This document shows positions 7,712-14,537 of a DNA stretch of 64,000 nucleotides, in pieces. The stretch is taken from NCBI GenBank assembly GCA_019115125.1, contig DXEG01000037.1, positions 124,001-188,000 of the forward strand, in the 5' to 3' direction. The translations under genes were made by a program, and so were the position numbers. This DNA is from Candidatus Blautia faecipullorum (lineage in GTDB: Bacteria > Bacillota > Clostridia > Lachnospirales > Lachnospiraceae). Within the stretch, counting starts at the first letter, position 1. Each line of letters opens with the position of its first letter. The notes beneath the pieces are model-generated. The model saw only the letters and a program-made list of their open reading frames with translations, made no database searches and was not told the origin of the DNA.

Positions 7712-8539
7712 CTATATCTGTGTGGGCGGGCCTCCGAATTGTTTTTTGTAGGCGCGGACAAAAGAGGTGTAGTCCCGGAAACCGCTTTGGGCGGAGGCTT
7801 TCATCACAGGAAGGCCCTGGGTGATCAGAGAGCGGGCCAGAAGAAGCCTTTTGCTGACAATGTAATTGTGGACCGTATAGCCGGTTGCTTCCTTGAATTT
7901 CCGCATCATATGGTATTTGCTGAAGAAAAAATCCTCTGCCAGCCGGTCGATGGACAGATCTCCGTCCAGATGAAGGTTGATATAACGAAGGAGCGATTCT
8001 ATCTGGCTGTCAGAAGAATAGGAGGCTTTGTCCGTGATATAGGTTTTTTCCAGAAAGATCCTGTTTATGTAAATCATGAACTGGGTAAAAAGGGCAGTTT
8101 TTAAAAGGGAATCGCCGAAGGCGCTTCCGGAGAGAGAACGTTCCAGCTCAAAAAGAATGTCCTTCAGCCGCTCCAGAAGGCGGGAGTCCAGACGGATCAG
8201 ACTGAAGCTTCTGTCGTTGGCTTTTTGGAAGCAGGTATTCAGTTCCGTATTTCCGATATCCTCCCGTATCCACAAAACAAATCGCTCATATGGAACGGAA
8301 AAGTCTATCTCCGGCTTATGGATGGCTCCCCGGCTGACCAGCAGAATATCCCAGGGGCTTAAATGGTAGGTCTTTCCTTCAATATGATAGCTTACTTTTC
8401 CTGACAGAAAAATAATGATCTTGTGGAAATCGTGATAATGAAAGCTGTAATTTTTCTGTGCCTGATCCCGCAGATGAAAGAGACGGAAATCCTCATCCAG
8501 ATAACCGGATTTTTCGGAGGGATCCAGAGTATGCTCCAT
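7712..8539 (-). CDS. AraC family transcriptional regulator
   Basis: Transcription regulator with an N-terminal cupin sensor (FHYHDFHKIIIFLSGKVSYHIEGK, His-rich) and a C-terminal pair of helix-turn-helix motifs (LAEDFFFSKYHMMRKFKEATG and SGFRDYTSFVRAYKKQFG), about 275 residues. On the minus strand AAGGAGG stands 7 nt before the ATG at 8539 but only 1 nt before an ATG at 8545, so I use 8539. It converges on the sugar operon and may respond to its substrate, though no operator could be assigned. Target and ligand are unknown. Confidence 0.9.
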   Translation of the reverse strand: MEHTLDPSEKSGYLDEDFRLFHLRDQAQKNYSFHYHDFHKIIIFLSGKVSYHIEGKTYHLSPWDILLVSRGAIHKPEIDFSVPYERFVLWIREDIGNTELNTCFQKANDRSFSLIRLDSRLLERLKDILFELERSLSGSAFGDSLLKTALFTQFMIYINRIFLEKTYITDKASYSSDSQIESLLRYINLHLDGDLSIDRLAEDFFFSKYHMMRKFKEATGYTVHNYIVSKRLLLARSLITQGLPVMKASAQSGFRDYTSFVRAYKKQFGGPPTQI

Positions 8540-8752
8540 AGACATGCCTCCTTGTCCGAGTGTTGAATTGATTTCATACTATCACAGAGATATGAGCTCC
8601 GCAAGAGCGGGGTGGGGAAAACGGACAGTATAGCGGAAAAGACTGACGGTACAGCAGCGCGCTGTGGGAGTTTTAGTAGTTATTTTTTACTATATGTGGT
8701 AAACTATAAAATGAAAGGTATTATGAAATAAAAATAGTCAGGAGGGATGATG

Positions 8753-9007
8753 ATGTGCCAGATAGCATTTAGTGTACCAGATGAAGTCCTTTTCGATACC
8801 AAAATGAGCAAAGAGCAAGCGAACCAGTTTGCAAGGCGATATGTAGCATTGGGTTTTTACAAACAGCGAGGAGTATCCATTGGATATTGTGCACAGATTG
8901 CCGGAATGACAGAAGAAGAATTTATAAAATATTTAGGACAGAATGAAATCTCTATCTTTCAGTTTGCTGACAAGGAAGAATTCCTGGAGGAATTAGATCA
9001 TGCGTAA
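8753..9007 (+). CDS. UPF0175 family protein, probable antitoxin
   Basis: Small protein of 84 residues matching the UPF0175 pattern (FSVPDEVLF..., then ARRYVALGFYKQRGVSIGYCAQIAGMTEEEFIKYL), a helix-turn-helix-like fold that commonly precedes a DUF3368 PIN-domain gene. Three ATGs in a row occur at 8747, 8750 and 8753; GGAGG at 8741-8745 favours the third. It overlaps the next gene by 8 nt, as expected for a co-translated toxin-antitoxin pair. The pair is more A/T-rich than its neighbours, which suggests transfer. An inverted TTTAC/GTAAA repeat at 8686-8703 could be its own operator. Confidence 0.8.
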   Translation: MCQIAFSVPDEVLFDTKMSKEQANQFARRYVALGFYKQRGVSIGYCAQIAGMTEEEFIKYLGQNEISIFQFADKEEFLEELDHA

Positions 9008-9482
9008 AGTAATTGTCAATTCAACACCTTTGATCATTCTTTGCGGGAGTGGTAAATTAAATATTCTGAAAGAGATGTATGGGGAAATTATAATTCCGTC
9101 CGCAGTGTTTAGAGAAGTGACAGCGAAGGATGATTCTGCCTGTGTCCAGATCAGGTCAGCGGGAGATTGGATCCATGTAGAACAAATTAAGGATCATAGT
9201 GAAAAGAAAATGTATAAAGCGAAACTTCATGATGGAGAAGTAGAAGTAATGATCCTTGCCCAAGAGAGAAATGCAGATTTGGTGATTTTGGATGACAATG
9301 CCGCAAAGAAGACCGCTAAATATTTAGGTCTTACTGTTACAGGAACGCTGGGAGTTTTGGTGAAGGCAAAACATCGGGGAATCATAGAAGAAGTCCGCCC
9401 GCTTTTATCTGAGATGAGACAAAATGGTTTTTATATCAGCAAAGCAGTTGAGGATATGGTTTTAGAACAAGCAGGCGAGTAG
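9000..9482 (+). CDS. DUF3368 PIN-like domain protein, probable toxin
   Basis: 160-residue protein of the DUF3368 family, a PIN-like nuclease fold. The acidic residues expected of a PIN active site can be picked out: N/S near the start (VIVNSTPLI, where classical PIN proteins have Asp), LHDGEVEVMILA with Asp and Glu, and DLVILDDNAAKKTAKYLG with the Asp pair. The first Asp is thus Asn, which is common in DUF3368. It overlaps the UPF0175 gene by 8 nt. Inference: RNA-cleaving toxin neutralised by the UPF0175 partner. An accessory role other than toxin is possible, since few members have been tested. Confidence 0.8.
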   Translation: MRKVIVNSTPLIILCGSGKLNILKEMYGEIIIPSAVFREVTAKDDSACVQIRSAGDWIHVEQIKDHSEKKMYKAKLHDGEVEVMILAQERNADLVILDDNAAKKTAKYLGLTVTGTLGVLVKAKHRGIIEEVRPLLSEMRQNGFYISKAVEDMVLEQAGE

Positions 9483-9621
9483 TAATCTGAAACGGTGGTA
9501 TTATCTTCGTAAAGCATTTTTTGCAATATATTTCGCATTTTATCCTATATACATTGAAAAAATAATTGTTATAATAATTCTATACGGCCAGTGTAATGCA
9601 GAAGAAAGGAAGGGTGCGGGT

Positions 9622-10470
9622 ATGGCAGACTGTATGGTAATGATGAAATATCAGGGATTGGGGAATGATTATCTGGTGCTGGATCCCAACAAAAACGCGT
9701 CACATCTCCACGGGAAGAAAATTGCCCTGATGTGCCAGAGAGGATTTGGCCTGGGGGCGGACGGAGTGCTTTACGGCCCGGTGGATATAAATGGAAAAAT
9801 GGGAGTTCATATTTATAACGCGGACGGAAGCGAATCCGCCATCAGCGGCAACGGAGTCCGGATCTTTGCCAAATATCTGATGGATCAGGGATATATAAAA
9901 GAGAAGAAGTTCAGCATTGAAACTCTGTCCGGGCCTATTGAGGCGGAGTGCCTGAACAACCGGGCCACGGAATTCCGGGTGAATATGGGGAAGGCTTCTT
10001 TCCTTTCGAGAGAAATCCCTGTTACTGGGGAGATCCGTGAGGTTATCAATGAGGGCTTTACCTTTAATCATAAGGAATATCAGGCCACCTGCCTTACCGT
10101 GGGAAATCCTCACTGCATTATTTTTACAGATGAGGTAAATGCGGAGAAGGCGAAAGAACTTGGACCCTATGTGGAAAACGCGGAAGAATTTCCGGAGAGG
10201 ATGAATCTTCAGCTTTGCCGCCGGATCGATTCCGGAAACCTGGATATTGAGATCTGGGAGAGAGGCTCCGGCTATACCAAGGCGTCGGGAACAGGGAGCT
10301 GCGCGGCCGCGGCTGCGGCGTACCGTCTGGGCCTTGTGGAGAGCAGAGTTAACGTCAATCAGCCCGGCGGGATGATCCAGATCGATATCCAGGAGGACGG
10401 AATCATCTATATGACCGGAAGCGTAGGCTATGTGGCCGATATCAGTATTGCAGAAAGCTTTTTTGCCTGA
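9622..10470 (+). CDS. Diaminopimelate epimerase-like protein with Ser/Ser in place of the Cys/Cys dyad
   Basis: 282-residue member of the DapF fold. The family landmarks are present: QGLGNDYLVLD near the N-terminus, GLGADGVL, YNADGSE, GNPHCIIF, ERMNLQL and WERGSGYTKASGTGS, so the residues that hold the diaminopimelate carboxylates and amines (Asn, Asn, Glu-Arg) appear kept. The two catalytic cysteines of DapF (in E. coli AQCGNG and QACGSG) are both serine here: S75 in AISGNG (codon AGC, 9844) and S222 in KASGTG (codon TCG, 10285). Established enzymology says the two thiols act as acid and base, so ordinary epimerase activity is doubtful. It is a lone gene rather than part of a dap operon. It could be an enzyme with new chemistry, a slow epimerase or a binding protein. 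Confidence 0.85.
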   Translation: MADCMVMMKYQGLGNDYLVLDPNKNASHLHGKKIALMCQRGFGLGADGVLYGPVDINGKMGVHIYNADGSESAISGNGVRIFAKYLMDQGYIKEKKFSIETLSGPIEAECLNNRATEFRVNMGKASFLSREIPVTGEIREVINEGFTFNHKEYQATCLTVGNPHCIIFTDEVNAEKAKELGPYVENAEEFPERMNLQLCRRIDSGNLDIEIWERGSGYTKASGTGSCAAAAAAYRLGLVESRVNVNQPGGMIQIDIQEDGIIYMTGSVGYVADISIAESFFA

Positions 10471-10569: not shown

Positions 10570-10725
10570 GTATGGCAATAAACCACTTGCGCTTCGGTAG
10601 TTACGATTTATCTAATAGTGCATAATTTGTCGAAAAACACAAATTTATGCTTTTGACAGCATTAAATTGATTGTTTGACGATCGGCTGAAAGGAAAACCC
10701 AAAATGACAGAGCATCTGGAAGAAC

Positions 10726-10834
10726 CTTGGTGCAGACGACTATCTGATCAAGCCGTTTAGTCACAGCGTTTGATAAGGAGAACCAGTCTCAGGAAAAGCT
10801 GGAAGAATTATATCAGCTCGGAAAACGTCTGTAA
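10726..10834 (+). pseudogene. Relic of a response-regulator receiver domain
   Basis: Reading from 10726 gives LGADDYLIKPF and then a stop at 10771. GADDYLxKPF is the conserved beta5/alpha5 segment of response-regulator receiver domains (the Lys being the conserved one). A second open piece in another frame (10778-10834) ends in SQEKLEELYQLGKRL and a stop. No start or remaining receiver motifs are present. This is a short, frame-broken remnant of a two-component regulator gene or its fusion partner. The rest of 10570-10725 shows nothing recognisable. Confidence 0.6.
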
Positions 10835-12561: not shown

Positions 12562-13230
12562 ATGGATGCAAAAATGTAAGAAGGAAAAACAGCGATCATT
12601 ACAGGTGCAAGTTATGGTATGGGACAGACTATGGCGGAGCTCTTTGCGGAGGAAGGGGCAAATGTCGTCCTTACGGCCAGAGGGCAGGATAAGCTCGATG
12701 AGGCAGTGGAGCGCATCCGCGCAAAGGGCGGAAATGCGGTAGGCGTAATAGCAGATGTGTGTTCCACGGAAGATACAAGAAAGGTTATGGATACGGCATT
12801 AAGGGAATTCGGGGATCTGGATATCCTGATCAATAATGCGGGAATCGGAGAGCAGAAAATGATCGATGAGACAGAGGATGACTGGATGCGGTTTGTCATG
12901 GATACAAATTTAGGAGGGCCTATGAGATACATCCGGGAAGCGCTGAAGATTTTTCTTCCGAAAAATGTAGCTATGCGTCTTGTAGATACCAATATCCGCT
13001 GCAACGCAGTGGCTCCGGGAGCGACGGTAACGCCAGCGCATCTGGCAAATAAGGCAGGGGAGCAGCCGGGAGGAGCAAAGATGCTGGAATACAGCGGCCA
13101 TTATGTCTATTTCCCCGGACCGGAGTGTGATCCCATGGATCAGGCATATGCGTGTCTTTATCTTGCAAGCAAAATGGGACGGGCGGTACGCGGACAGGTG
13201 CTGCAGGTATGTAACGGGGCATTTTTGTAA
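12562..13230 (+). pseudogene. Decayed short-chain dehydrogenase/reductase
   Basis: The gene begins with a good site (AAAGGAGGAG) and ATG at 12562 but codon 6 is TAA (12577-12579). The frame then continues with SDR sequence: EGKTAIITGASYGMGQTMAE (Rossmann glycines), DLDILINNAGIG (NNAG), then RCNAVAPGATVTPAHL and the C-terminal end. Around 12960-12966 the sequence jumps from EALKIFLPKN to VAMRLVDTNIRCN, so about 40 residues including the catalytic Ser and YxxxK are missing without a frame change. Two separate lesions make it inactive. A start at 12619 would lack the cofactor glycines as well. The ancestral enzyme probably worked with the reductase upstream under LysR control. Confidence 0.85.
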
Positions 13231-13424: not shown

Positions 13425-14537
13425 ATGAAAAAAAGACAATATATCCTTTCCCTGACAGTTCTTGCGGCAGCCGGGCTTCTGATCACCGGATGCAGCCGTG
13501 CAGGCAGGGGAGAAGAAAATGGGACACAGGGAGAAGCGGGTATGACACATCAGACGGAGGAGCTGGGCAGCACGTTTATCGCTCCTACAGAAGATATTAC
13601 AGAACTGGAGGAAGGACTCTCCATCGTGCGCTATGAAGGGGATCACGGATTTGATGGATTTCTGGAGCAGGGAGGCGCAGATTCCGACGCAGGAGTCGTA
13701 TCGTATGTCAGTGACCGGATCATGGGCAATCTTCCGGGACTGATTTTTGGCGGGGATCCATTTGGCTGCAGTACCCTGTCCGTACAGGGGGCAGACGGTG
13801 GATATCTATTCGGAAGGAACTTTGACTGGGACACCTGTAACGGACTGATCATCAGCTCAAGACCGGAAAATGGATATGCGTCTGTTTCCACAGTGAATAT
13901 GGACTTTATTCAGGCGGGAGGCGCAGATATCTCCGGACTGCCGGACCGTGTACAGGCGGCGGTTGGGCTTTATGCGCCTCTTGATGGTATGAATGAGGAA
14001 GGGCTGGCTGTTTCTGTAAACATGATTCAGGATTCGGAAACAATTAACCAGAATACAGGGAAACCGGATCTGACGACCACAACAGCAGTTCGGCTGCTTC
14101 TTGACCGGGCGGCAGATGTGAATGAAGCAGTGGAGCTTCTTGGACAGTATGACCTGCATGCTTCTATGAACATGATGATTCATTTTGCATTGTCGGATGC
14201 TTCCGGCAGAAGTGTCGTAGTGGAATATGTGGATAACGAGATGACAGTGACAGAGACAAAGGTGGTAACAAACTTCTATCTGACAGAAGGAGAAAAATAC
14301 GGCATCGGCACTTCCCAGTCCCATGAGAGATACGACATCCTGCAGCAGATACTTGCCGGACAGGAAAGCATGACAGAAGCTGAGATCAGAGATGCATTAG
14401 ACAGTGTAAGTAAGGATAACTTCGGTGATGAGTTCGCCTCTACGGAGTGGAGCATTGTCATGAATCAGGAAACAAAGGAGCTGACTTATTTTCACAGAGA
14501 AAACTACGAGAACGGATATACCGTTTCCGTAGAGTAA
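13425..14537 (+). CDS. Lipoprotein Ntn-hydrolase, choloylglycine/linear amide C-N hydrolase family
   Basis: 370 residues. The N-terminus has a lipobox (LLITGC, Cys about residue 23), so the mature protein should be lipid-anchored outside the membrane. The catalytic domain resembles bile-salt/penicillin V hydrolases and C45-type peptidases: FGCSTLSVQGADGGYLFGRNFDWD supplies the candidate nucleophile Cys, the Arg of GRN and the Asp of FDW, and DGMNEEGLAVSVNM the conserved Asn. In most relatives the Cys becomes the N-terminus after self-cleavage; here it would mean removal of roughly 115 residues. It starts a co-directional run with an acyl-activating enzyme and an ABC exporter 10 nt downstream. 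Likely cleaves amide bonds of extracellular N-acyl compounds; bile-salt activity is possible but not shown. Confidence 0.8.
   Translation: MKKRQYILSLTVLAAAGLLITGCSRAGRGEENGTQGEAGMTHQTEELGSTFIAPTEDITELEEGLSIVRYEGDHGFDGFLEQGGADSDAGVVSYVSDRIMGNLPGLIFGGDPFGCSTLSVQGADGGYLFGRNFDWDTCNGLIISSRPENGYASVSTVNMDFIQAGGADISGLPDRVQAAVGLYAPLDGMNEEGLAVSVNMIQDSETINQNTGKPDLTTTTAVRLLLDRAADVNEAVELLGQYDLHASMNMMIHFALSDASGRSVVVEYVDNEMTVTETKVVTNFYLTEGEKYGIGTSQSHERYDILQQILAGQESMTEAEIRDALDSVSKDNFGDEFASTEWSIVMNQETKELTYFHRENYENGYTVSVE

Follow-up and report, generated by a model that had tools for sequence, protein, structure and literature searches.

A conserved Ser/Ser branch of the DapF family in Blautia and other bacteria as a candidate thiol-free diaminopimelate epimerase

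In the window analysed here, the whole 64,000-nucleotide stretch of a Candidatus Blautia faecipullorum contig, a gene of the diaminopimelate epimerase (DapF) family encodes a protein with serine at both catalytic cysteine positions, and sequence comparison indicates that such Ser-type proteins are one deep, ancient clade apart from Cys/Cys DapF. We regard it as a protein of the diaminopimelate (DAP) pathway, and the leading though tentative reading, held at just short of an even chance, is that of a putative thiol-free DAP epimerase with a Ser/Ser pair. According to this proposal, an ancient DapF subfamily would have retained the DAP pocket while its Cys/Cys acid-base pair was swapped for Ser/Ser, and Ser75 and Ser222 would remove and return the proton at the proximal α-carbon of L,L-DAP/meso-DAP. 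The protein occurs in Blautia and in many further Clostridia as an extra copy beside a Cys/Cys DapF, with an AraC-type regulator and operator-like site of its own, whereas in some other lineages it is the only DapF found; the benefit would be an active site proof against oxidation. The features of the window on which the argument draws are as follows.

7712..8545, minus strand: AraC-family regulator of 277 aa with AraC_binding cupin and HTH_18 domains, divergent partner of the Ser/Ser gene (Pfam)
9000..9482, plus strand: ORF with DUF3368 (PF11848) between regulator and operator (Pfam), perhaps an insertion
9514..9537, plus strand: operator-like site GCATTTTTTGCAATATATTTCGCA, 24 bp, 84 bp upstream of the ATG, with 1 mismatch to the family consensus
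9570..9575, plus strand: TATAAT between operator and gene, read directly and lying inside a conserved upstream block, likely a -10 element
9622..10470, plus strand: Ser/Ser DapF paralogue of 282 aa (ORF from ATG, DapF models, AF2, Foldseek)
9844..9846, plus strand: AGC codon of Ser75, at the first catalytic Cys position (read from the sequence)
10285..10287, plus strand: TCG codon of Ser222, at the second catalytic Cys position (read from the sequence)

The motifs GLGNDY, NADGSE, GNPH and WERGSG, which the first-pass annotation had listed as DapF substrate-binding signatures, can all be read directly in the protein encoded at 9622-10470. Its description of serine at both catalytic positions also holds: the two cysteines of the MCGNG and ACGTG motifs are absent, and Ser75 and Ser222 align with the catalytic cysteines of solved DapFs. 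The protein scores 237.1 bits against NCBIfam TIGR00652 (DapF, cut-off 114.65) and 178.4 bits against Pfam PF01678 (DAP_epimerase, cut-off 34.7), so pipelines that use these models would name the gene diaminopimelate epimerase. An AF2 model built on an alignment of 42 Ser-type proteins (mean pLDDT 92.5, pTM 0.88) has Anabaena DapF 9mro as its top Foldseek match (E 1.2e-31, TM 0.89/0.90, 35% identity), the top 26 matches being DapFs and O-ureidoserine racemase, and Ser75 and Ser222 each sit in this model directly ahead of a helix N-terminus. What is shared with DapF (EC 5.1.1.7) is therefore the fold (TM about 0.9 to 9mro), the DAP-contact residues, the loops capping two helices and model scores far above cut-off, whereas the Ser/Ser clade lacks both thiols, has its own deep branch, carries Tyr10, Cys38, Gly52-Pro53 and Tyr218, and in many Clostridia has an AraC-type regulator beside the gene. 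Membership of the proline racemase superfamily (PF05544, 24.7 bits, under the cut-off of 27) and of the CntK/HisR histidine racemases (NF033599, 18.2 bits against a cut-off of 300) was considered and rejected. CntK and HisR (PMC11602996) have the DapF-like fold and two-base mechanism in common with the present protein and differ in being Cys/Cys.

Within the genus the serine pair is present in every full-length orthologue that was read. Among 61 genomes searched, 37 of them of the genus (window genome included), a full-length orthologue was present in 24 of the 37 (window genome again included) at 66-100% identity, with an orthologue fragment only, at a contig end, in G003. All 24 are Ser/Ser, so the search of homologues that had been suggested at first pass turned up no close relative with Cys. 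In a larger draw the gene is present in 40 of 64 genus genomes, with residues read for 24. Compared with Blautia orthologues, the window gene has a dN/dS of 0.026-0.103 (11 of 14 pairs with a value; the figures are rough because dS exceeds 1 throughout), beside 0.060-0.119 for Cys/Cys copies (8 of 10 pairs with a value, equally rough with dS above 1 throughout). The Ser/Ser gene is under purifying selection.

Beyond the genus, 84,980 species genomes were scanned with alignment A2, and relatives were taken from the best 80 of 579 candidate loci encoding one. A tally of 113 rows from this set, with repeats and the window included, gave 100 Ser/Ser, 6 Cys/Cys, 5 Ser/Asn, 1 Thr/Ser and 1 Cys/Ser; the distinct proteins, with relatives likewise from the best 80 of 579 and with L095 omitted for a start motif outside the pattern, comprise 83 Ser/Ser, 25 Cys/Cys, 4 Ser/Asn, 1 Thr/Ser and 1 Cys/Ser. 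Among the matches listed, relatives occur in Clostridia, Negativicutes, Planctomycetota, Spirochaetota and Bacteroidota, the hosts including Lachnospiraceae, Sporomusa, Lucifera, Phycisphaerales and Sedimentisphaerales as well as a Spirochaetes MAG and two Tannerella MAGs, for which misbinning is possible. The clade is rare in even draws: 8 of 398 Bacillota genomes have a member above 400 bits with the A3 model, all eight Ser/Ser, the remaining 22 loci read being Cys/Cys, and a clade member is present in 3 of 199 Planctomycetota genomes (G079, G072 and G162), the other 27 of the best 30 loci there being Cys/Cys. Of the earlier suggestion of a widespread, misannotated paralogue, the spread is borne out, over several phyla, and annotation models do name these proteins DapF. 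None of 115 matching plasmid records held a match of at least 60% identity that would point to plasmid spread.

In two quick maximum-likelihood trees, of 69 and 83 rows, the Ser-type and Cys/Cys rows are split by one branch with an SH-aLRT of 100. The Ser/Ser protein of G162 (Planctomycetota), which has Glu at 218, is basal and long-branched in the trees. The Cys/Ser protein of G055, also on a long branch, lies inside the Ser clade in the 83-row tree and is outermost in the 69-row tree; its Cys75 would be a reversion if the protein belongs inside the clade, a placement of which we are unsure. The same genome encodes a 537-aa fusion (L179:4689-6302, contig C30) of a PALP (cysteine-synthase-like) domain and a degenerate DapF domain that has lost the GNG loop and kept the second Ser motif, an arrangement that presumably resembles the synthase/racemase pair of D-cycloserine biosynthesis.

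The codons of the two serines had been taken at first pass as a sign that at least one change from Cys needed more than a single base step. In the 83 distinct Ser/Ser genes, codon 75 reads AGY in 82 and TCC in one (L087), and codon 222 is always TCN, in 52 of them TCC. A single base step from a TGY cysteine codon can therefore account for either change, which leaves the codon argument uninformative. The pattern would fit a single origin through two single-base changes from TGY. Because L087 is the sister of the Thr/Ser protein L061, its switch at codon 75 may have passed via Thr, with a hydroxyl kept throughout. L061 and L087, both from Lachnospiraceae, also have a GTG instead of a GNG loop, in genomes with Ddh and without DapL over cut-off, and further drift of the active site is possible there.

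The pocket is the first line of evidence for DAP as the ligand. In Anabaena DapF, DAP is held by Asn13, Asn66, Gly76, Asn77 and Asn164, with further contacts from Asn197, Glu215, Arg216, Gly225 and Thr226 (PMC12039745); the corresponding residues of the window protein are N15, N66, G76, N77 and N162, and N195, E213, R214, G223 and T224. Among 88 distinct Ser-type proteins, N15, N66, G76, N195, E213, R214 and G223 are each present in all 88, N162 in 87, N77 in 85 and T224 in 68, the other 20 having Ser, while Ser75 is found in 87 and Ser222 in 84. Both ends of a DAP-like ligand are therefore still catered for, and among these groups only the two thiols have been swapped. The exceptions among the 88 are four Ser/Asn proteins, one Thr/Ser protein and three without Asn77. 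Tyr10, Cys38, Gly52-Pro53 and Tyr218 are each found in 88 of 88, and positions 10, 52 and 218 are mostly Met, Ile and Glu in the 25 Cys/Cys DapFs. Cys157 and Cys165 are likewise invariant in the Ser-type proteins, a figure biased by selection because one of the two peptide patterns used in the 84,980-genome scan contains both, and the idea of these two as new catalytic cysteines was dropped on that account; Cys38 is free of this bias.

Gene neighbours are the second line. One example is a cluster in G597 (L212:6243-10303), where genes for a TrmB-like regulator, lysA, the Ser/Ser dapF and an LL-DAP aminotransferase lie back to back with overlapping called ends. Its lysA scores 372.4 bits against TIGR01048 (cut-off 297.9) and its LL-DAP aminotransferase 657.1 bits against NF004937 (cut-off 585), and the genome has a Cys/Cys DapF (L219) and DapL elsewhere. 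L062, from Lacrimispora, has a ligase gene for D-Ala-D-Ala (NF002378, 313 bits, cut-off 243) that overlaps the Ser/Ser gene, and both L062:7983-10852 and L070:7980-10852 show the order regulator, operator-like site, D-Ala-D-Ala ligase and Ser/Ser dapF, the last two overlapping and the L070 ligase gene being named by likeness; a link to peptidoglycan rather than lysine is possible there. Further afield, dapB lies 5 kb from the Ser/Ser gene in G162, asd 1 kb from it in G636, and lysA about 1.3 kb ahead of the Cys/Ser gene in G055. Blautia and its close kin contribute 18 loci with hom 2.5-7 kb from the gene, 17 of which have lysC within 10 kb too (a single example of each family was verified); hom of the window lies 28 kb away. 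A lysine/DAP neighbour was matched in 24 of 90 loci, a set that includes a few not Ser/Ser: 19 of the 24 belong to Blautia and kin, one is the window itself, and the matches of L178, L180, L212 and L214 are self-matches, the LysA, DapB, DapL2 and Asd queries having been taken from these four. In most of the 90 loci no lysine/DAP neighbour was found. On the ligand, the first-pass annotation had left several activities side by side and mentioned neither the regulator and operator-like site nor the lysine and cell-wall links; these point to DAP, and pocket and gene neighbours together make DAP the likely ligand.

Some other neighbours are recorded for their own sake. In L109:9992-13835 and L110:1388-5178 a Ser/Ser and a Cys/Cys dapF gene lie 2.1 kb apart, separated in the Enterocloster locus of this pair by a GlnA glutamine synthetase gene (515.4 bits) and by another gene whose family is unknown. 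Downstream of the Ser/Ser gene in the window, positions 10723-10758, outside the called genes, read NLGADDYLIKPF in one frame, which we take to be a response-regulator receiver motif and probably the remnant of a lost gene. A short-chain dehydrogenase ORF at 12619-13230 has only 203 aa; model matches cover the first part of the ORF and begin near profile position 15, so it may be shortened. The product of 13425-14537 is a C45-family autoproteolytic acyltransferase/hydrolase (NF040521, 99.6 bits, cut-off 85) that also resembles choloylglycine hydrolases (PF02275, 56.8 bits, cut-off 20.4).

The Ser/Ser gene has a divergently encoded partner in the regulator at 7712-8545, which scores 48.5 bits against AraC_binding (cut-off 21.1) and 59.1 bits against HTH_18 (cut-off 33.6). 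Among relatives from the best 80 of 579 loci, which are not independent of one another, an AraC homologue accompanies the Ser-type gene at 47 of 74 loci; 46 of these 47 homologues are encoded on the opposite strand, and 38 are immediate neighbours of the gene. The 74 are those examined out of 81, leaving out L036, L037, L045, L101, L106, L111 and the window. With the regulator counted as present at E up to 1e-60, 32 of 64 genus genomes have regulator and Ser/Ser gene, 8 the Ser/Ser gene only, 2 the regulator only and 22 neither (Fisher p 1.4e-8, kinship ignored). One of the two regulator-only genomes, G097, has a contig that stops 0.2 kb beyond the regulator; the other, G093 (Blautia), retains next to its regulator a dapF paralogue reduced to a 173-aa remnant, and the site between them is kept with 1 mismatch. 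This remnant (L176:10721-11242) is an intact 173-aa ORF without catalytic loops or either Ser residue, and its end (ESFF) is similar to the C-terminus of genus orthologues. In a comparison of 39 genomes behind loci already found, kinship being ignored, the regulator adjoins the gene in 13 of 25 with a second DapF (Cys/Cys in 21 of the 25) but in none of the 11 that lack a second DapF and offer 3 kb or more of upstream sequence.

The operator-like site, GCATTWTTTGCAATATANNNNGCA, is conserved across genera. With up to 4 mismatches it occurs in 18 of 18 genus loci with the regulator (window included) and in 1 of 6 without it (L025), the best matches in 60 shuffled upstream regions having 5 to 9 mismatches. 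It lies within 450 bp upstream of the gene in 39 of 47 regulator-paired loci (best 80 of 579). Those without it at that distance are L062, L064, L069, L070, L096, L098, L109 and L110, and in L062 and L070 the site (3 mismatches) stands ahead of the D-Ala-D-Ala ligase gene between regulator and dapF. In the other loci it was found in 5 of 32, namely L036, L037 and L045, which fall outside the regulator survey, and L057 and L058, which start near a contig end. In the 64-kb window 9514-9537 is the sole site with up to 4 mismatches, and in G028, of which 1.6 of 3.3 Mb were scanned in 80 stretches of 20 kb, the one strong site (38.3) precedes the Ser/Ser gene, the next (20.8) lying inside an ORF; a wider operator regulon was accordingly rejected for the part of G028 that was scanned. 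Given these single sites, the AraC-type regulator looks dedicated to the Ser/Ser gene and would control it.

The window genome itself does not seem to need the Ser/Ser protein for DAP. The earlier proposal to look in this genome for a Cys/Cys DapF or DapL led to both and to Ddh besides: a second DapF with MCGNG/ACGTG, hence Cys/Cys, and 37% identity, encoded on a different contig (L005:5132-5986, minus strand), DapL at 593.8 bits (cut-off 364.7) and the dehydrogenase Ddh at 473.2 bits (cut-off 180.6). Because all three are present, DAP supply should not depend on the Ser/Ser gene.

Elsewhere the situation differs, since 14 genomes, judged by DapF-homology searches and many of them drafts, have a Ser-type protein as the only DapF, Ser/Ser in 13 and Thr/Ser in one (G063). 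Ten were recognised with the Pfam model (G040, G063, G070, G071, G078, G079, G080, G082, G083 and G085), and the A3 model, with stricter limits, added another four (G162, G390, G563 and G617); in G079 the Ser/Ser gene stands on a 6.5-Mb contig titled chromosome. Eight of the 14 (G040, G078, G079, G080, G082, G085, G390 and G617) have DapL and no Ddh over cut-off, two (G063 and G070) have Ddh without DapL over cut-off and also lack a LysA match, and in four (G071, G083, G162 and G563) no DapL or Ddh match reaches its cut-off. Of the 9 genomes tested for LysA, 3 exceed the cut-off (G078, G079 and G085); below it, G040 (267) and G082 (280) score similarly to the window genome's own 266, and G080 and G083 lower. 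DapL makes L,L-DAP, and by pathway logic cells with DapL and without Ddh would need an epimerase for meso-DAP. Another epimerase could serve in these genomes, for example the PLP-type DapF2 proposed in Staphylococcus and others (PMC9026213), which has in common with the present protein that it is a proposed non-canonical solution to the same step and differs in being homologous to alanine racemase, not to DapF.

Serine as a base has precedent in the wider fold. Structures are available for a Ser/Cys 4-hydroxyproline epimerase and a Ser/Thr trans-3-hydroxyproline dehydratase (PMC4113996); these enzymes have Ser at the first catalytic position and a related fold in common with the window protein, but their second residue is Cys or Thr where it has Ser, and their substrates differ. 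A possible advantage is suggested by the Cys/Cys DapF of C. glutamicum, which loses activity when its two cysteines join in a disulfide (PMC5296763); without thiols, a Ser/Ser site makes such an inactivating disulfide impossible, and an oxidation-proof spare copy under its own regulator is plausible in Blautia. Against a serine epimerase counts that replacing both cysteines by Ala inactivates E. coli DapF (PMC4227774) and that single Cys-to-Ser changes in HisR greatly cut turnover (PMC11602996), although such variants were made in the laboratory and lack the other differences of the clade. The Ser/Asn and Thr/Ser proteins, the losses of Asn77 and the G093 remnant also count against it, as do the DapL, Ddh and Cys/Cys DapF of the window genome, the Ddh without LysA match or DapL in G063 and G070, the four of 14 genomes with neither DapL nor Ddh, and the absence of lysine neighbours from most loci. 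The Ser-type protein may not have the same function where it is the sole DapF as where a second one is present. In the open literature searched, which leaves subscription papers mostly outside, no natural Ser/Ser DapF was described, and no kinetics of a C73S/C217S mutant of the H. influenzae enzyme were found.

Unlikely on the whole, but the best surviving alternative, is a DAP-binding pseudoenzyme or regulator that would bind DAP without turnover and sense or buffer it, or that would bind a protein partner independently of catalysis, as E. coli DapF binds RppH, with the AraC-type regulator tuning its amount. Retained DAP contacts with both thiols gone are what such a protein would show, and the RppH-binding role of E. 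coli DapF is a function independent of the cysteines, the variant with both changed to Ala still binding and stimulating RppH (PMC4227774). The dedicated-looking regulator, with its one site in the 64-kb window and a single strong one in the scanned part of G028 (1.6 of 3.3 Mb), fits as well, and the Ser/Asn versions of G074 and G088, in genomes with Cys/Cys DapF and Ddh, together with the regulator and site that G093 retains beside its remnant, make binding without turnover a serious rival for such lineages. A binder, however, needs no hydroxyls at the catalytic positions, yet Ser75 and Ser222 are kept in 87 and 84 of the 88 proteins, and both the genomes with DapL, without Ddh and with only a Ser-type DapF and the lysA-dapF-aminotransferase cluster would be left unexplained.

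A further alternative, which we consider more doubtful still, is other chemistry: a one-base dehydration, β-elimination or isomerisation of a DAP analogue that carries a hydroxyl group or sulfur. The proline racemase superfamily offers an analogy, since dehydration there is associated with a Ser/Thr pair (PMC4113996); the clade-specific Tyr10, Gly52-Pro53 and Tyr218 (88 of 88) could belong to a changed substrate, and a single-target regulator would suit a salvage step. Yet no recognised neighbour gene in the contexts read points to such a substrate, the G597 cluster fits DAP itself, and both positions remain Ser, not one. That the serines reflect a sequencing error or a decaying duplicate is so improbable as to be negligible, given 24 of 24 orthologues with Ser/Ser and dN/dS values not above those of the Cys/Cys copies.

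DapF is a model of the cofactor-free two-thiol epimerase and a drug target whose cysteines are the point of attack for covalent inhibitors, aziDAP among them. If our preferred reading of a thiol-free DAP epimerase is right, Ser/Ser proteins would carry out the same step without cysteines; in any case, the DapF label of current models also covers proteins whose DAP epimerase activity is putative. A conserved Ser/Ser branch with a kept pocket offers a natural test of the need for thiols in epimerase chemistry, and it predicts a DapF that thiol-directed inhibitors would be unable to trap.
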